This document shows, piece after piece, positions 20,780 through 61,157 of a DNA stretch of 64,000 nucleotides. Each line of letters begins with the position of its first letter. Position 1 is the first letter of the stretch. The stretch covers positions 1 to 64,000 of the forward strand of contig NZ_JAANHS010000007.1 in the NCBI RefSeq assembly GCF_011174775.1, given 5' to 3'. The notes beneath the pieces are model-generated. The model was not told the origin of the DNA and did not search any database. It was given only the letters and a program-made list of their open reading frames with translations. Source of the DNA: Rhodobacter calidifons (GTDB lineage Bacteria > Pseudomonadota > Alphaproteobacteria > Rhodobacterales > Rhodobacteraceae). The position numbers and the translations under genes are program-made.

Positions 20780-20834
20780 GAAATGAGTCGCGGCAAGGGG
20801 CAGGATGGCCCCGCGCGAACAGGGAGCCAAGCCG

Positions 20835-22085
20835 ATGCCAGCAACCGGGGACAACCTTCGGATCAATTCCGCACGCCTGTGGGACAGCCTGATGGAAATG
20901 GCGAAGATCGGCCCGGGTGTGGCGGGGGGGAACAACCGCCAGACCCTGACCGATGCCGACAGCGAAGGGCGGCATCTGTTCGCCTCCTGGTGCAGGGCGG
21001 CCGGGATGACGATGGGCGTCGATACCATGGGCAACATGTTCGCCACGCGGGCGGGGACCGACCCGGACGCCCTGCCGGTCTATATCGGCAGCCACCTCGA
21101 CACCCAGCCGACGGGGGGCAAGTATGACGGGGTCCTGGGCGTTCTGGCGGGGCTGGAAGTGGTGCGCACGCTGAACGACATGGGGGTCAAGACCAGGCAC
21201 CCGATCGTCGTGACCAACTGGACGAATGAAGAGGGCACCCGCTTTGCCCCCGCGATGCTCGCCAGCGGAGTCTTTGCCGGGGTGCTGGAGCAGGACTGGG
21301 CCTATGACCGCCGCGACGCCAAGGGCCTGCGTTTCGGCGACGAGCTGGAGCGGATCGGCTGGAAGGGGACCGAAAAGGTCGGCGCGCGCAAGATGAAGGC
21401 GATGTTCGAGCTGCACATCGAACAGGGCCCGATCCTCGAAGCCGAGGGCAAGGAGGTCGGCGTTGTGACCCACGGCCAGGGCTTGCGCTGGATCGAATGC
21501 ACAGTGACGGGCAAGGGGCAGCATACCGGCTCGACCCCGATGTATCTGCGCCGCAATGCCGGGCGGGGGCTGGCCCGGGTGATCGACCTGGTGCACGAGA
21601 TCGCCATGGCGCGGCAACCCAATGCCGTTGGGGCGATCGGGCACATCGACGTCTACCCCAACAGCCGCAACATCATCCCGGAAAAGATCGTTTTCACGGT
21701 GGATTTCCGCAGCCACATCCTGGAGACGCTGGAGGCGATGGTCGCCGAGTTCAACGCCCGTGCCCCGGGACTGTGTGCCGAGGTGGGGGTGAAGTTCACA
21801 TCGCAGCTCTCCGGCTGGTTCGACCCGCCGGCTTTCGACGAAAACCTTGTGAAGATCGTCCGCCAATCAGCTGAAAAGCTTGGATATTCCCACATGGACA
21901 TCGTTTCCGGCGCCGGTCACGACGCCTGCTGGATCAACCGCGTCGCCCCCACGGTGATGGTGATGTGCCCCTGCGTGGACGGCCTGTCGCACAACGAGGC
22001 GGAGGAGATCAGCCCGGAATGGGCGGCGGCGGGGACGGATGTGCTGCTGCATGCGGTGCTTGAGGTGGCGGAGGTGGTGGGGTGA
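20835..22085 (+). CDS. Zn-dependent M20 amidohydrolase, beta-ureidopropionase-like
   Basis: A 416-aa hydantoinase/carbamoylase-family enzyme. Metal ligands are visible in GSHLDTQPTGGKYDGVLGVLAGLE, TNWTNEEGTRFAPAM, ELHIEQGPILEAEG and near the C-terminus GLSHNEAEEI. It contains the dimerisation insert with the GQHTGSTPM motif. In this context it should hydrolyse N-carbamoyl-beta-alanine (or beta-aminoisobutyrate) to the beta-amino acid, CO2 and ammonia, the last reductive step. ATG 20835 follows AGGGAG. Allantoate amidohydrolase is the main alternative, but the preTA/hydA neighbours favour the pyrimidine role. Confidence 0.9.
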   Translation: MPATGDNLRINSARLWDSLMEMAKIGPGVAGGNNRQTLTDADSEGRHLFASWCRAAGMTMGVDTMGNMFATRAGTDPDALPVYIGSHLDTQPTGGKYDGVLGVLAGLEVVRTLNDMGVKTRHPIVVTNWTNEEGTRFAPAMLASGVFAGVLEQDWAYDRRDAKGLRFGDELERIGWKGTEKVGARKMKAMFELHIEQGPILEAEGKEVGVVTHGQGLRWIECTVTGKGQHTGSTPMYLRRNAGRGLARVIDLVHEIAMARQPNAVGAIGHIDVYPNSRNIIPEKIVFTVDFRSHILETLEAMVAEFNARAPGLCAEVGVKFTSQLSGWFDPPAFDENLVKIVRQSAEKLGYSHMDIVSGAGHDACWINRVAPTVMVMCPCVDGLSHNEAEEISPEWAAAGTDVLLHAVLEVAEVVG

Positions 22086-22094
22086 TATCCAACA

Positions 22095-22128
22095 GGATAC
22101 CCGTCCCGGGCGTGACCCGGGACCTCTG
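22095..22128 (-). repeat. CGGG-tailed REP-like element, copy 1
   Basis: Read on the minus strand it gives GGTCCCGGGTCACGCCCGGG followed by ACGGG. The stem is GTCCCGGG / CCCGGGAC with a 5-nt loop and a CGGG tail. It is inverted relative to copy 2, so 22095-22185 forms a REPIN-like pair. Confidence 0.8.
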
Positions 22129-22159
22129 CCTGACGCTCGCGGTGCGCCGGGTCGATCGA

Positions 22160-22185
22160 GGCCCCGGGTCAAGCCCGGGGCGGGG
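22160..22185 (+). repeat. CGGG-tailed REP-like element, copy 2
   Basis: GGCCCCGGGTCAAGCCCGGG followed by GCGGGG. The changes from the other copies are compensatory (T-A to C-G at the stem base), preserving the hairpin. It is 39 bp before the GIY-YIG start. Confidence 0.8.
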
Positions 22186-22223
22186 TTCACCTTCCATTAA
22201 CTCTCGCGCGCCAGACTGCGGGC

Positions 22224-22508
22224 ATGGCGCATTTCGTCTACATCATGGCCTCGCGGCCCTGCGGCGCGATCTATATCGGGCGCACCGGGAACCTTTCCGC
22301 GCGCGTCGAGGCGCATCGGGCCGGGCAGTCGGTGCACACGGCGAGATACAAGATTCACACGCTCGTCTGGTTCGAAGCGCACGAGGACTTTCAGACCAGC
22401 CTTCAGCGGGAACTCGCGATCAAGCGCTGGCCGCGTGCCTGGAAGAATGCGCTGATCGCCGAGCGAAATCCGAACTGGCAGGATATAACCGCACACATTC
22501 CGCACTAG
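22224..22508 (+). CDS. Small GIY-YIG nuclease-family protein
   Basis: A 94-aa single-domain protein of the YhbQ/UPF0213-like branch. The GIY-YIG motifs are VYIM (residues 5-8) and IYIGRTGNL (16-24), with Arg27 and a conserved Glu in QRELAIKRWPRAWKNALI. The end RNPNWQDIT is typical. These proteins have one catalytic domain and no DNA-binding partner, and their role is unsettled. No good Shine-Dalgarno precedes ATG 22224. The gene is enclosed by REP-like repeats on both sides, which suggests that nuclease and repeats travel together. Confidence 0.88.
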   Translation: MAHFVYIMASRPCGAIYIGRTGNLSARVEAHRAGQSVHTARYKIHTLVWFEAHEDFQTSLQRELAIKRWPRAWKNALIAERNPNWQDITAHIPH

Positions 22509-22528
22509 GCGTCAGCGCCGGTGCCAAC

Positions 22529-22563
22529 CAGAGGTCCCGGGTCAGGCCCGGGACGGGTATTCC
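22529..22563 (+). repeat. CGGG-tailed REP-like element, copy 3
   Basis: CAGAGGTCCCGGGTCAGGCC and onward to GTATTCC. It is the inverted partner of copy 1 including the CAGAGG and TATTCC flanks outside the hairpin. It ends 22 nt before hydA, so its hairpin could also affect the mRNA upstream of that gene. Confidence 0.82.
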
Positions 22564-22584
22564 TTTGTTCAGCAGGAGCCGCAC

Positions 22585-24036
22585 ATGACCACCATCATCA
22601 AGAACGGCACCGTCGTCACCGCCGATCTCACCTACAAGGCCGATGTGCGGGTGGAGAACGGGGTGATCACCGAGATCGGGCAGGCGCTCCGCGGCGGCAC
22701 CGAACTCGATGCGACCGGCTGCTATGTCATGCCCGGCGGGATCGACCCTCATACGCATCTGGAGATGCCCTTCATGGGCACCTATTCGGCGGATGACTTC
22801 GAGTCCGGCACCCGGGCGGCGCTGTCGGGCGGGACGACGATGGTCGTCGACTTCATCCTGCCGGGGCAGGGGCAGGACCTGATGGACGCGGCCAAGGTCT
22901 GGTCGAACAAGTCAACCCGCGCGACCTGCGATTATTCCTACCACATGGCCGTCACCTGGTGGGGCGAGAAGGTCTGGCAGGGGATCGAGGACTCGGCCAA
23001 GGCCGGGATCACCAGCTTCAAGCACTTCATGGCCTACAAGGGCGCGCTGATGGTGAACGATGATGAATTGTTCAACAGCTTCCGCCGGGTGGGCGACGTG
23101 GGCGGCCTGGCGATGGTCCATGCCGAGAACGGCGATGTGGTGGCGGAACTCACGGCGAAGCTCTTGAAGGAGGGCAACACAGGACCGGAAGCCCACGCCT
23201 ATTCCCGCCCGCCGCAGGTGGAGGGCGAGGCCACGAACCGCGCGATCATGATCGCCGACATGGCGGGTGTGCCGCTCTATGTCGTCCACGTCTCCTGCGA
23301 GGACGCGCATGAGGCGATCCGGCGCGCCCGCCAGCAGGGCAAGCGGGTCTGGGGCGAGCCGCTGATCCAGCACCTGACGCTGGACGAAAGCGAATATTTC
23401 CACCCCGACTGGGACCATGCCGCGCGGCGGGTGATGTCGCCGCCCTTCCGCAACAAGCAGCATCAGGACAGCCTCTGGGCGGGTCTGATGTCCGGCAGCC
23501 TCTCGGTGGTCGCGACCGACCATTGCAGCTTTACCACCGAACAGAAGCGCTTCGGTCGCGGCGACTTCTCGAAGATCCCGAACGGGACGGGGGGGCTGGA
23601 GGACCGGATGCCCATGCTCTGGACCCATGGCGTGAACACCGGGCGGCTGACGCCGAATGAATTTGTCGCGGTAACCTCGACCAATATCGCGAAAATCCTG
23701 AACTGCTACCCGAAGAAGGGCGCGGTGCTGGTGGGGGCGGATGCCGACCTTGTGGTCTGGGATCCGGAAAAGACCAAGACGATCACCGCTGCCAGCCAGC
23801 AATCGAAGATCGACTACAACGTGTTCGAGGGCCACACCGTGAAGGGTCTGCCCCGCTTCACCCTGACCCGCGGGCATGTGGCGATCCACGATGGCGAGGT
23901 GCGCACGCAGGAAGGCCACGGGAAGTTTGTCCCCCGCGAGCCGCGCCCGGCGGTGAACCGCGCGCTGACCCAGTGGAAGGACCTGACCGCACCCCGCCCG
24001 GTGGAGCGGACGGGTATTCCGGCGACGGGGGTCTGA
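22585..24036 (+). CDS. hydA: Dihydropyrimidinase
   Basis: A 483-aa cyclic amidohydrolase (D-hydantoinase type). The metal-binding HTHLEMPF is near residue 57, the carbamylated lysine lies in SFKHFMAYKG, further histidines are in MVHAENGDVV and VVHVSCEDAHEAI, and the catalytic Asp is in ATDHCSF. N-terminal KNGTVVTADLTYKADVRVENG and C-terminal GADADLVVWDPEKTKTI complete the fold. It opens dihydrouracil/dihydrothymine to the N-carbamoyl beta-amino acid, between PreTA and the M20 enzyme. AGCAGGAG precedes the start; a REP-like hairpin ends 22 nt upstream. Confidence 0.96.
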   Translation: MTTIIKNGTVVTADLTYKADVRVENGVITEIGQALRGGTELDATGCYVMPGGIDPHTHLEMPFMGTYSADDFESGTRAALSGGTTMVVDFILPGQGQDLMDAAKVWSNKSTRATCDYSYHMAVTWWGEKVWQGIEDSAKAGITSFKHFMAYKGALMVNDDELFNSFRRVGDVGGLAMVHAENGDVVAELTAKLLKEGNTGPEAHAYSRPPQVEGEATNRAIMIADMAGVPLYVVHVSCEDAHEAIRRARQQGKRVWGEPLIQHLTLDESEYFHPDWDHAARRVMSPPFRNKQHQDSLWAGLMSGSLSVVATDHCSFTTEQKRFGRGDFSKIPNGTGGLEDRMPMLWTHGVNTGRLTPNEFVAVTSTNIAKILNCYPKKGAVLVGADADLVVWDPEKTKTITAASQQSKIDYNVFEGHTVKGLPRFTLTRGHVAIHDGEVRTQEGHGKFVPREPRPAVNRALTQWKDLTAPRPVERTGIPATGV

Positions 24037-59925: not shown

Positions 59926-61107
59926 ATGCTCGCGCCCTTCGCCTGCCAACCCGACGCCAGCCGCGGACGGCTCTGGCCCGAGCGGCTGTCCTCCTTCCGC
60001 TCGCCCTTTCAGCGCGACCGCGACCGGATCATCCATTCCTCGGCCTTCCGCCGCCTGAAGCACAAGACGCAGGTCTTCGTGGAACACGAGGGCGACTATT
60101 ACCGCACCCGCCTGACCCACACGATCGAGGTGGCGCAGGTCGCCCGCACCATCGCCGGGGTCCTTGGCCTGAACACCGACCTTGCCGAGGCGGTGGCCCT
60201 GGCCCACGACCTGGGCCACACCCCCTTCGGCCATACCGGCGAAGACGCGATGGAACGGCTGATGGCGCCCTATGGCGGCTTTGACCACAACGCCCAGGCG
60301 CTGCGGATCGTGACCCGGCTGGAACGGCACTACGCCGACTTCGACGGATTGAACCTGTCCTGGGAAACACTTGAAGGCATTGCGAAACATAACGGCCCGG
60401 TTATCGGCCCCAATGCGGACGGGAAGCATGACGGCCCCCTCCCTTACGCGCTGGCCGAGGTCAACGCCCAATGGGATCTGGAACTCGACACTCACGCCAG
60501 CGCCGAGGCGCAGGTGGCGGCCATCGCCGACGACGTGGCCTATTCCCACCACGACCTGCACGACGGCTTGCGCTCGGGCCTGTTCACCGAGGACGATCTG
60601 ATGGATCTGCCCGTCACCGGCCCGGCCTTCGAGGAGGTGGACCGCCTTTATCCGGGCCTGGAAAGGATGCGCCGTCGGCACGAGGCGCTGCGCCGGGTCT
60701 TCGGCCGCATGGTCGAGGACGTGATCGCCGTGGCGCAGAACCGCCTGGCCAGCGCCCAGCCGAAATCGGTGGACGATATCCGCCACATGGGCACGACGAT
60801 CATCCGCTTCTCCAAGCCGCTGTATCAGGAACTGAAGGCGGTGCGCAGCTTTCTTTTCCACCGCATGTACCGCGCGCCCAGCGTGATGGCAGTGCGGGCC
60901 GAGGTGACGCGCAAGCTGGACGATCTCTTCCCGCTCTTCCTGTCGCGGCCCGACCTTCTGCCGCCGGAATGGCAGGCCGATGTCCGGGCGGCGCAGGACG
61001 AGACCGCCCTGGCGCGCACGGTGGCGGATTACGTGGCCGGCATGACCGACCGTTTCGCGATCCAGGAACACCAGCGCCTGTGCGGCGGAACCCCGCCCCG
61101 GCCCTGA
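59926..61107 (+). CDS. dgt: Deoxyguanosinetriphosphate triphosphohydrolase-like protein
   Basis: A 393-aa HD-domain dNTPase. It has FQRDRDRIIHSSAFRRLKHKTQVF, RLTHTIEVAQVARTIA, metal-binding AHDLGHTPFGHTGEDAM, HYADFDGLNLSWETLEGI and ADDVAYSHHDLHDGL. It cleaves dNTPs to nucleosides and triphosphate. ATG 59926 follows AAGGAC; an earlier in-frame ATG at 59893 is less well placed. Its last codons and stop lie inside the first half of a REP-like inverted pair. Confidence 0.95.
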   Translation: MLAPFACQPDASRGRLWPERLSSFRSPFQRDRDRIIHSSAFRRLKHKTQVFVEHEGDYYRTRLTHTIEVAQVARTIAGVLGLNTDLAEAVALAHDLGHTPFGHTGEDAMERLMAPYGGFDHNAQALRIVTRLERHYADFDGLNLSWETLEGIAKHNGPVIGPNADGKHDGPLPYALAEVNAQWDLELDTHASAEAQVAAIADDVAYSHHDLHDGLRSGLFTEDDLMDLPVTGPAFEEVDRLYPGLERMRRRHEALRRVFGRMVEDVIAVAQNRLASAQPKSVDDIRHMGTTIIRFSKPLYQELKAVRSFLFHRMYRAPSVMAVRAEVTRKLDDLFPLFLSRPDLLPPEWQADVRAAQDETALARTVADYVAGMTDRFAIQEHQRLCGGTPPRP

Positions 61108-61157
61108 GCCGGGGCCTCGCCGCGATCAGGAGGTCCCGGGTCAGGCCCGGGACGGGG
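61091..61157. repeat. CGGG-tailed REP-like inverted pair (second locus)
   Basis: 61131-61157 (plus) reads AGGTCCCGGGTCAGGCCCGG and onward, nearly identical to the copy at 22529-22563. 61091-61116 is a degenerate copy in the opposite orientation (minus strand GGCCCCGGCTCAGGGCCGGG). The pair repeats the inverted layout of 22095-22185 without any nuclease gene. The first half overlaps the dgt stop codon. Confidence 0.75.

Follow-up and report, generated by a model that had tools for sequence, protein, structure and literature searches.

RAYTs are the known enzymes of REPs, and a RAYT of E. coli has been reported to nick GTAG REPs, according to the accessible portion of the survey by Di Nocera et al. 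(2013; PMC3733652). The same portion describes the CGTC superfamily of REPs, which spans five phyla and includes Neisseria dRS3 and Rickettsia RPE-4 and RPE-6, and it names S. meliloti, A. lipoferum, N. aromaticivorans and Neisseria as carriers (PMC3733652). In the words of the survey, CGTC REPs "apparently lack a dedicated transposase" (PMC3733652). As far as that portion of the text extends, these repeats are not tied to transposase genes, no tyrosine transposase gene is flanked by them, the few associations with other classes are fortuitous, and the authors left open which enzyme moves them (PMC3733652). The locus described here resembles a RAYT/REPtron with its GTAG REPs and REPINs in that the gene is flanked by the hairpin type dispersed in its own genome, in that inverted dimers occur, and in that some genomes have several repeat-specific genes, as the accessible part of the survey describes for RAYTs (PMC3733652). 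It differs in that the enzyme is a GIY-YIG protein (PF01541) rather than a Y1 HUH protein (PF01797), and in that the repeat tag is CGTC-like or ACCC rather than GTAG.

The window, a stretch of 64,000 nucleotides from Rhodobacter calidifons, contains on its plus strand a gene for a 94-residue GIY-YIG nuclease (22224..22508; PF01541, E 1.5e-10) between a pydC-like amidohydrolase gene on the left (20805..22085, plus strand; Peptidase_M20, PF01546, 1.4e-29) and hydA, encoding a dihydropyrimidinase-like amidohydrolase, on the right (22585..24036, plus strand; PF01979, 1.4e-23). Inverted-repeat search, the genomic consensus and folding together define REP 1 (22099..22126, plus strand), which consists of an ACCC tag on the outer side, a hairpin at 22103-22123 (GTCCCGGGCGTGACCCGGGAC) and a CTC tail. 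Its inverted partner, REP 2 (22158..22185, minus strand; hairpin 22161-22181, GCCCCGGGTCAAGCCCGGGGC), completes an upstream dimer whose spacer core occupies 22127..22157, the distance between the two hairpins being 37 nt with the CTC and GAG tails included. A lone downstream copy, REP 3 (22531..22558, minus strand; hairpin 22534-22554, GTCCCGGGTCAGGCCCGGGAC), also has its tag on the outer side. All three hairpins have an 8-bp stem and a 5-nt loop, and as single-stranded DNA they fold at -10.1, -11.7 and -10.4 kcal/mol in the order of their coordinates (z -3.6, -2.8 and -3.8), and the upstream dimer folds as a single long hairpin at -36.2 kcal/mol (z -4.7). The earlier note had described inverted repeats that bound the gene and extend past the hairpin, a REPIN-like pair on the left, and the interruption of a compact pydC-hydA run. 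Each of these is borne out: the outer arms (22090-22144 and 22513-22567) are 55 nt long and 80% complementary, the arms of the left pair (22100-22126 and 22158-22184) are 27 nt long and 89% complementary, and the pydC-hydA gap is 65-88 bp in 5 of 26 readable genomes of the genus versus 499 bp here. A search of 21900-22700 against Rfam gave Xoo8 alone, at chance level (E 0.31). A further dimer of the same family, with a spacer of 17 nt, lies at 61095..61153 of the window (L187).

The repeat is dispersed in the 3.62-Mb genome, for the most part in the form of inverted dimers. The 20-mer GGTCCCGGGTCAGGCCCGGG matches 68 genomic sites with at most 3 mismatches, versus 1 for a control pattern, and a degenerate 21-mer has 57 exact matches, versus 0 for its control. 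If sites were placed at random, the chance of finding one within 300 bp on both sides of a given gene would be about 3e-5, a figure that intergenic clustering would raise. The consensus of 68 hairpins with called orientation, taken from 32 fetched stretches and the window and including at least two palindromes of other kinds, reads CCC, then the stem-loop G[CT]CCCGG[AG]C[CT]TGA[TC]CCGGG[AG]C, then CTC, with an A-rich region further 5' and a G at position -8. The tag is mostly ACCC or CCCC in this genome, and the CTC tail is conserved at 93% in each of its three columns. Tags face outward and tails inward in 29 of 30 inverted dimers, the orientation of the remaining one being uncalled. The window repeats are thus like CGTC REPs in this predominantly single dimer orientation, and also in their stem and loop, which for CGTC REPs measure 8-9 bp and 4-5 nt in the accessible text of the survey (PMC3733652). 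They are unlike them in carrying ACCC instead of a CGTC, TGTC or CCTC tag and a CTC rather than a CCA tail. Judged by their sequence, they are a variant of CGTC-type REPs with tag ACCC and tail CTC. No GGTCCCGGGTCAGGCCCGGG-type site lies near the other two PF01541 genes of the genome.

The dimer spacers fall into two main length classes near 18 and 36 nt (17-18 nt in 18 of 30 dimers, 35-37 nt in 9, and 15, 19 and 21 nt in the remainder), and their likeness is limited to the CTC...GAG ends. Among the 22 of 30 spacers that were compared, the 18-nt class (n=12, including one local duplication at 0.92) has a mean core identity of 0.32 versus 0.29 for shuffled cores (sd 0.014), and the 17- and 36-nt classes are similarly near the shuffled level. 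Copying of spacers along with dimers was therefore rejected, and the unshared spacers suggest that the dimers either are not duplicated whole or date from long ago.

The 94-residue protein has no NCBIfam match, and Tabrizicola, Cypionkella and Szabonella supply its nearest named homologues. An alignment of 61 homologues, from which near-duplicates, copies with stop codons and several proteins with C-terminal extensions were excluded, contains among its invariant residues Y6, G19, R27, H31, E63, K67, W69, R71, W73, K74, N82 and W85. We take Y6, G19, R27, H31 and E63 to be the catalytic residues of the GIY-YIG fold. The AlphaFold2 model has a pLDDT of 94.5, and the predicted fold and the aligned positions of the putative catalytic residues place the protein in the GIY-YIG family. 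A profile search retrieves the UPF0213 structures 1zg2 and 1ywl, and Foldseek ranks 1zg2 first (1.1e-4), followed by Slx1 chains at E 0.017 or worse. The protein therefore resembles the single-domain UPF0213-type GIY-YIG proteins, of which two, from Bacillus halodurans and Enterococcus faecalis, have solved structures, in sequence profile, fold and motif positions. It shares the fold of Slx1 as well, but Slx1 works with Slx4. PADLOC leaves the protein unmatched, and a PHROG search gives no match for it.

Homologous genes were gathered from four sources: a family sample in which 17 of 149 genomes have the gene, a species collection (60 loci), a selection of 41 genomes from the genus and family, 7 of them with a match, and a class sample (206 of 387 genomes with a match, 30 loci fetched). 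After removal of 9 duplicates from 118 loci, 109 distinct loci were scored by one common rule. A REP lies within 300 bp of the gene in 97 of them, on both sides in 68, and REP density is 4.04/kb near the gene, 0.139/kb far from it and 0.513/kb in far intergenic DNA (29-fold and 8-fold differences). The proposal in the earlier note of a RAYT/REP-like pairing with an unrelated GIY-YIG nuclease is thus strongly supported and extends well beyond the single locus. Twelve loci have no REP by this rule (L027, L028, L031, L043, L070, L083, L088, L091, L128, L143, L145 and L148). Several of these homologues are distant or incomplete, the hairpins of L043 have 4-nt loops and so fall outside the rule, and L070 and L083 received hairpin labels in a later tree script, which handles hairpins at the gene end differently. 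The nearest REPs at the 68 two-sided loci are arranged tags-outward in 34, minus/minus in 18 (the window type), plus/plus in 9 and reversed in 7. Relatives with the gene at pydC-hydA keep related hairpins, and homologues elsewhere mostly have their own hairpin type, which counts in favour of the pairing proposed in the earlier note. Two homologues with in-frame stops (L063, L074), probably decaying copies, still adjoin REP-like hairpins. Roseibium aquae (L086) has two homologues within 0.9 kb in opposite orientation. The pydC-GIY-hydA locus of L043 (CP059262.1) is as in Rhodobacterales and comes from a metagenome-assembled genome labelled Exiguobacterium profundum, a label that looks wrong.

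Outside Rhodobacterales, most loci have CGTC or TGTC before the hairpin and CCA or CC after it, so that tag, stem and tail there are like those of the CGTC superfamily, and the hairpins mostly begin and end with AT (or AC/GT). A homologue is present in 32 records of a plasmid collection, and 11 were fetched for taxonomic spread. Clear CGTC REPs lie within 350 bp of the gene in 8 of these 11, namely Neisseria gonorrhoeae, Azospirillum lipoferum, Sinorhizobium meliloti, Aeromonas caviae, Photobacterium (on the downstream side only), Rhizobium CIAT894, Sphingobium and Shinella. Novosphingobium aromaticivorans has the CGTC tag with a different tail, Rhizobium tumorigenes has a CCTC variant, and the Planktothrix record has no CGTC REP beside its homologue. 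Two of the PLSDB "plasmid" records, L222 (N. gonorrhoeae, 2.17 Mb) and L226 (A. caviae, 4.94 Mb), are chromosome-sized.

The hairpin type follows the protein. On a protein tree of 116 sequences (4 of 120 were dropped for stops or length), which is built on few columns and has unsettled bootstrap support, the hairpin classes require 23 changes versus 48.1 with shuffled labels (0 of 200 shuffles as low). The Rhodobacterales (Rho) hairpin type requires 4 changes versus 23.6, even-length hairpins 11 versus 15.3 (2 of 500 as low), and the label 'none' 10 versus 10.7. Proteins with a KKW motif have 10 even-length hairpins (4-nt loop), 3 odd and 2 none, and of the 79 with a KRW motif 77 have odd or Rho hairpins, 1 even and 1 none; the other 22 rows of the tree carry other motifs. 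This covariation is due in part to shared descent, and therefore a comparison of paralogues within a genome is the stronger test. Two of the two homologues in G003 and two of the three in G054 are flanked, with hairpins that differ between the paralogues. In five multi-copy genomes (G284, G181, G527, G466 and G295), REPs are present at 17 of 20 loci, L239, L243 and L244 being without, and the hairpins differ at most same-genome paralogues; 3 of the 20 loci overlap those already used, and for G284 7 of 12 matches were fetched.

Copy number of the repeat follows the presence of the gene. In the family sample, 11 of the 17 genomes that have the gene reach at least 10 copies, versus 5 of the 132 without it (p 3e-9, ignoring kinship), and the control pattern has 1 match in all 149 genomes. 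Where the window-type hairpin flanks the gene (13 genomes), the count is 5-240 copies, including the few beside the gene itself; in the 4 genomes where it does not, the counts are 0, 0, 0 and 2. In the class sample (n=387, with a few genomes in common with the family sample), which was scanned with one CGTC subtype pattern (4 control matches) and at most 13 candidates scored per genome, at least 10 copies occur in 43 of the 134 genomes that have a strong homologue (E below 1e-25) versus 16 of 253 others (p 1e-10, again ignoring kinship). The pattern covers one subtype, and in 91 of those 134 genomes it has fewer than 10 matches. The four genomes of the genus with the gene at pydC-hydA have 57, 26, 11 and 8 copies, three with another homologue elsewhere (L125-L127, beside 4-nt-loop hairpins) have 2, 0 and 4 window-type copies, and G160, with a partial match, has 7. 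The earlier note had asked in effect whether the repeats are equally common in genomes lacking the gene, and in both samples they are much commoner where it is present.

REP-rich genomes without the gene nevertheless exist. In the family sample they are G116, G010, G105, G076 and G118, with 218, 51, 25, 15 and 12 copies and no detectable homologue, and a profile search of ten REP-bearing gene-negative family genomes was also negative (0 of 10). Congeners with repeats and no homologue are G179 (42 copies), G161 (30), G163 (21), G156 (13) and G155 (10), and G161, G156 and G155 are 80%, 81% and 80% complete. Among 59 REP-rich genomes of the class sample, 9 have no match and 7 have weak matches only. 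Gene loss with persistence of the repeats would explain such genomes.

A 7-kb stretch of cobalamin genes with three REP dimers was compared across 31 congeners. At the site of dimer 1, readable in 22 relatives, G179 has the dimer and its spacer is identical, 17-22 bp stand in 14 relatives in place of the 116 bp of R. calidifons (G000), and other content is present in 7. Dimer 2 sits in frame inside cobN (L191 4757-4834; G000:C22:198556-198633), where 11 of 25 readable relatives have 42 bp versus 123 bp in R. calidifons, i.e. 27 codons fewer, and 11 have other content; G149, G152 and G163 carry REP dimers with different 36-nt spacers at this site. The in-frame dimer recalls the Rickettsia palindromic elements found inside genes. 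Dimer 3 is present in G152, and G179 is without 54 bp there yet retains GGGAC, which on the sequence looks like a deletion rather than an empty site. These comparisons of orthologous sites indicate that dimers come and go, even within a gene, the direction of change being unpolarised. The cobN loop that holds dimer 2 has other inserts in other congeners, and a second, unrelated C-rich repeat family (around CCCCATCCCTCCCCCACG and its inverse) is found at these same places, in the cobN loop and the cobN-cobW spacer, of several congeners (L193-L206).

The pairing of this GIY-YIG clade with tagged hairpins is well supported. The observations show the recurrent flanking, the covariation of hairpin type and protein clade, the co-occurrence of copy number and gene, the absence of PF01797 from the genome, and the presence or absence of dimers at orthologous sites in congeners. 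We conclude that this clade probably supplies the REP-associated nuclease for CGTC-type REPs, as a functional analogue of RAYTs on an unrelated fold, and we infer that the nuclease spreads the repeats. The gene in the window is probably a host-resident member, single-copy in this genome, and the tagged hairpin found beside it and at dispersed genomic sites would be its cognate DNA. Most likely the enzyme recognises the hairpin, either single-stranded on the lagging strand or as a cruciform, together with the asymmetric tag and tail, and nicks at or near the tag, as the E. coli RAYT is reported to do on GTAG REPs; the nick would initiate the formation of new inverted REP pairs. The working would be RAYT/REP-like with a different nuclease fold, and for that reason joining would probably need host repair or replication. 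The tags-outward arrangement of the gene-flanking REPs, seen for the nearest REPs of half of the two-sided loci, is the layout of the dimers, suggesting that the gene with its REPs may be the autonomous (parental) form and the REP dimers the non-autonomous short form.

The main puzzle is that unshared spacers of near-fixed length fit poorly with simple copying of dimers. A tentative and rather less than probable extension is that CGTC REPs in all five phyla, including Neisseria dRS3 and Rickettsia RPE-4 and RPE-6, are non-autonomous elements of a GIY-YIG nuclease that would nick hairpins without an HUH or DDE transposase. On this view every pair, having a spacer of its own and of almost constant length (about 18 or 36 nt), would be laid down anew around target or newly made DNA instead of being copied as a unit. 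We know of no description of such a pair-by-pair mode of transposition. The pairing would be a new case of a REP with a dedicated enzyme and possibly a new mode of transposition. With its relatives in many Proteobacteria, the gene is a strong candidate for the enzyme that a large repeat class has so far lacked, and it gives the question of what moves CGTC REPs, left open in the accessible text of the 2013 survey (PMC3733652), a concrete suspect. The candidate protein is small, usually annotated merely as 'GIY-YIG nuclease family protein', and provides natural nuclease-DNA pairs, several per genome in some species. If the reading is true, REP systems evolved on two or more occasions with unrelated nucleases at their centre, and a single enzyme family would lie behind Neisseria dRS3, the palindromic elements of Rickettsia and REP insertions in frame like the one in cobN. 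A literature search, with most subscription journals and preprints outside its coverage, found among the matches listed no paper coupling GIY-YIG with REP, REPIN, RAYT, CGTC repeats or dRS3. One paper containing GIY-YIG and REP terms is, from its accessible part, a carriage and pangenome study of Moraxella (PMC9465073).

The gene could instead be an element of the homing type that cleaves REPs and inserts into or among them, in the manner of some insertion sequences, the REPs being a target made by something else. GIY-YIG homing endonuclease genes share with it the nuclease fold, a patchy distribution and the repeated occupation of one site, and one homologue (L057) has a weak PHROG match to a homing endonuclease (3.4e-5). 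The gene usually lies beside or between REPs at loci that differ from clade to clade: other family members (L025-L031) and other clades occupy other sites, with the A. lipoferum gene between sufB and sufC, and REPs also occur in genomes without the gene. At the pydC-hydA loci (n=24), the identity of the GIY-YIG protein only weakly tracks that of its neighbours (Mantel r 0.23, with 67 of 2000 permutations as high), and the identity of the L022-L024 proteins to others is 41-47% where that of the neighbours is 83-87%. This weak correlation argues against strictly vertical inheritance, and replacement at the site probably occurred; such independence from the neighbours is also what a homing element would show. 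However, the main-clade gene stays at one junction, with the upstream neighbour common to 24 and the downstream neighbour to 25 of its 25 distinct loci, and copies per genome are few in the class sample (mostly 1-5, maximum 12). Among the within-genome paralogue pairs that could be aligned, DNA identity is 66-73%, and the absence of near-identical paralogues (20 loci, 5 genomes) speaks against a homing element and also against whole-gene transposition as the main mode. Paralogues have different REP types, so that a single REP pool is no common target. Also unlike homing endonuclease genes, no intron or intein was seen here, 94 residues leave no separate DNA-binding domain, and the gene is linked to a multicopy repeat. 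A homing element is therefore unlikely, and a REP-associated nuclease remains the preferred reading.

A structure-specific repair enzyme like Slx1, which would resolve REP cruciforms and let the host tolerate REPs without spreading them, is improbable. Slx1 and Slx4 act on branched DNA, and Slx1 stands second to UPF0213 in Foldseek, though with E above 0.01. The stable single-stranded folds of REPs and dimers agree with such a role, and co-occurrence of gene and repeats would follow from it, but it leaves unexplained why REPs flank the gene and why paralogues have different types, and REP-rich genomes without the gene exist.

That a RAYT or another transposase spreads the REPs in trans, the GIY-YIG gene being a bystander in a REP-rich spacer, is very improbable. 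RAYTs are established as REP enzymes in the accessible text of the survey (PMC3733652), and PF01797 (RAYT-type) occurs in 15 of 149 family genomes, but the R. calidifons genome has 0 matches, which disfavours a RAYT in trans there, and 14 of those 15 genomes have 0-3 repeat copies; the fifteenth, G098 (54 copies), also has the GIY-YIG gene. The lack of tyrosine transposase genes flanked by CGTC REPs, in the same part of the survey, is against it as well (PMC3733652). It is equally improbable that the hairpins serve only to control expression of the gene, as attenuators or mRNA stabilisers, with the dispersed copies being independent regulatory hairpins: their positions relative to the gene do recur at pydC-hydA, often at about -121 or -106, -63 and +7 to +35, but the dispersed copies have the same tag, stem, loop and tail as the flanking ones, form inverted dimers and in one case lie in frame inside cobN.

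The pydC-hydA junction itself (window 22086-22584; loci L096-L116) varies within the genus: 4 of the 26 readable genomes have the GIY-YIG gene and 17 have 175-784 bp of other content in addition to the five with the short gap. The longest open reading frames in this other content encode 67-197 residues, and a Pfam search of 10 of them gave one Trypco2 and one HEPN pEK499_p136 match above the cut-off, one match below threshold and none for the remaining 7. Three of these junctions (L105, L106 and L112) have contents that look mutually related.
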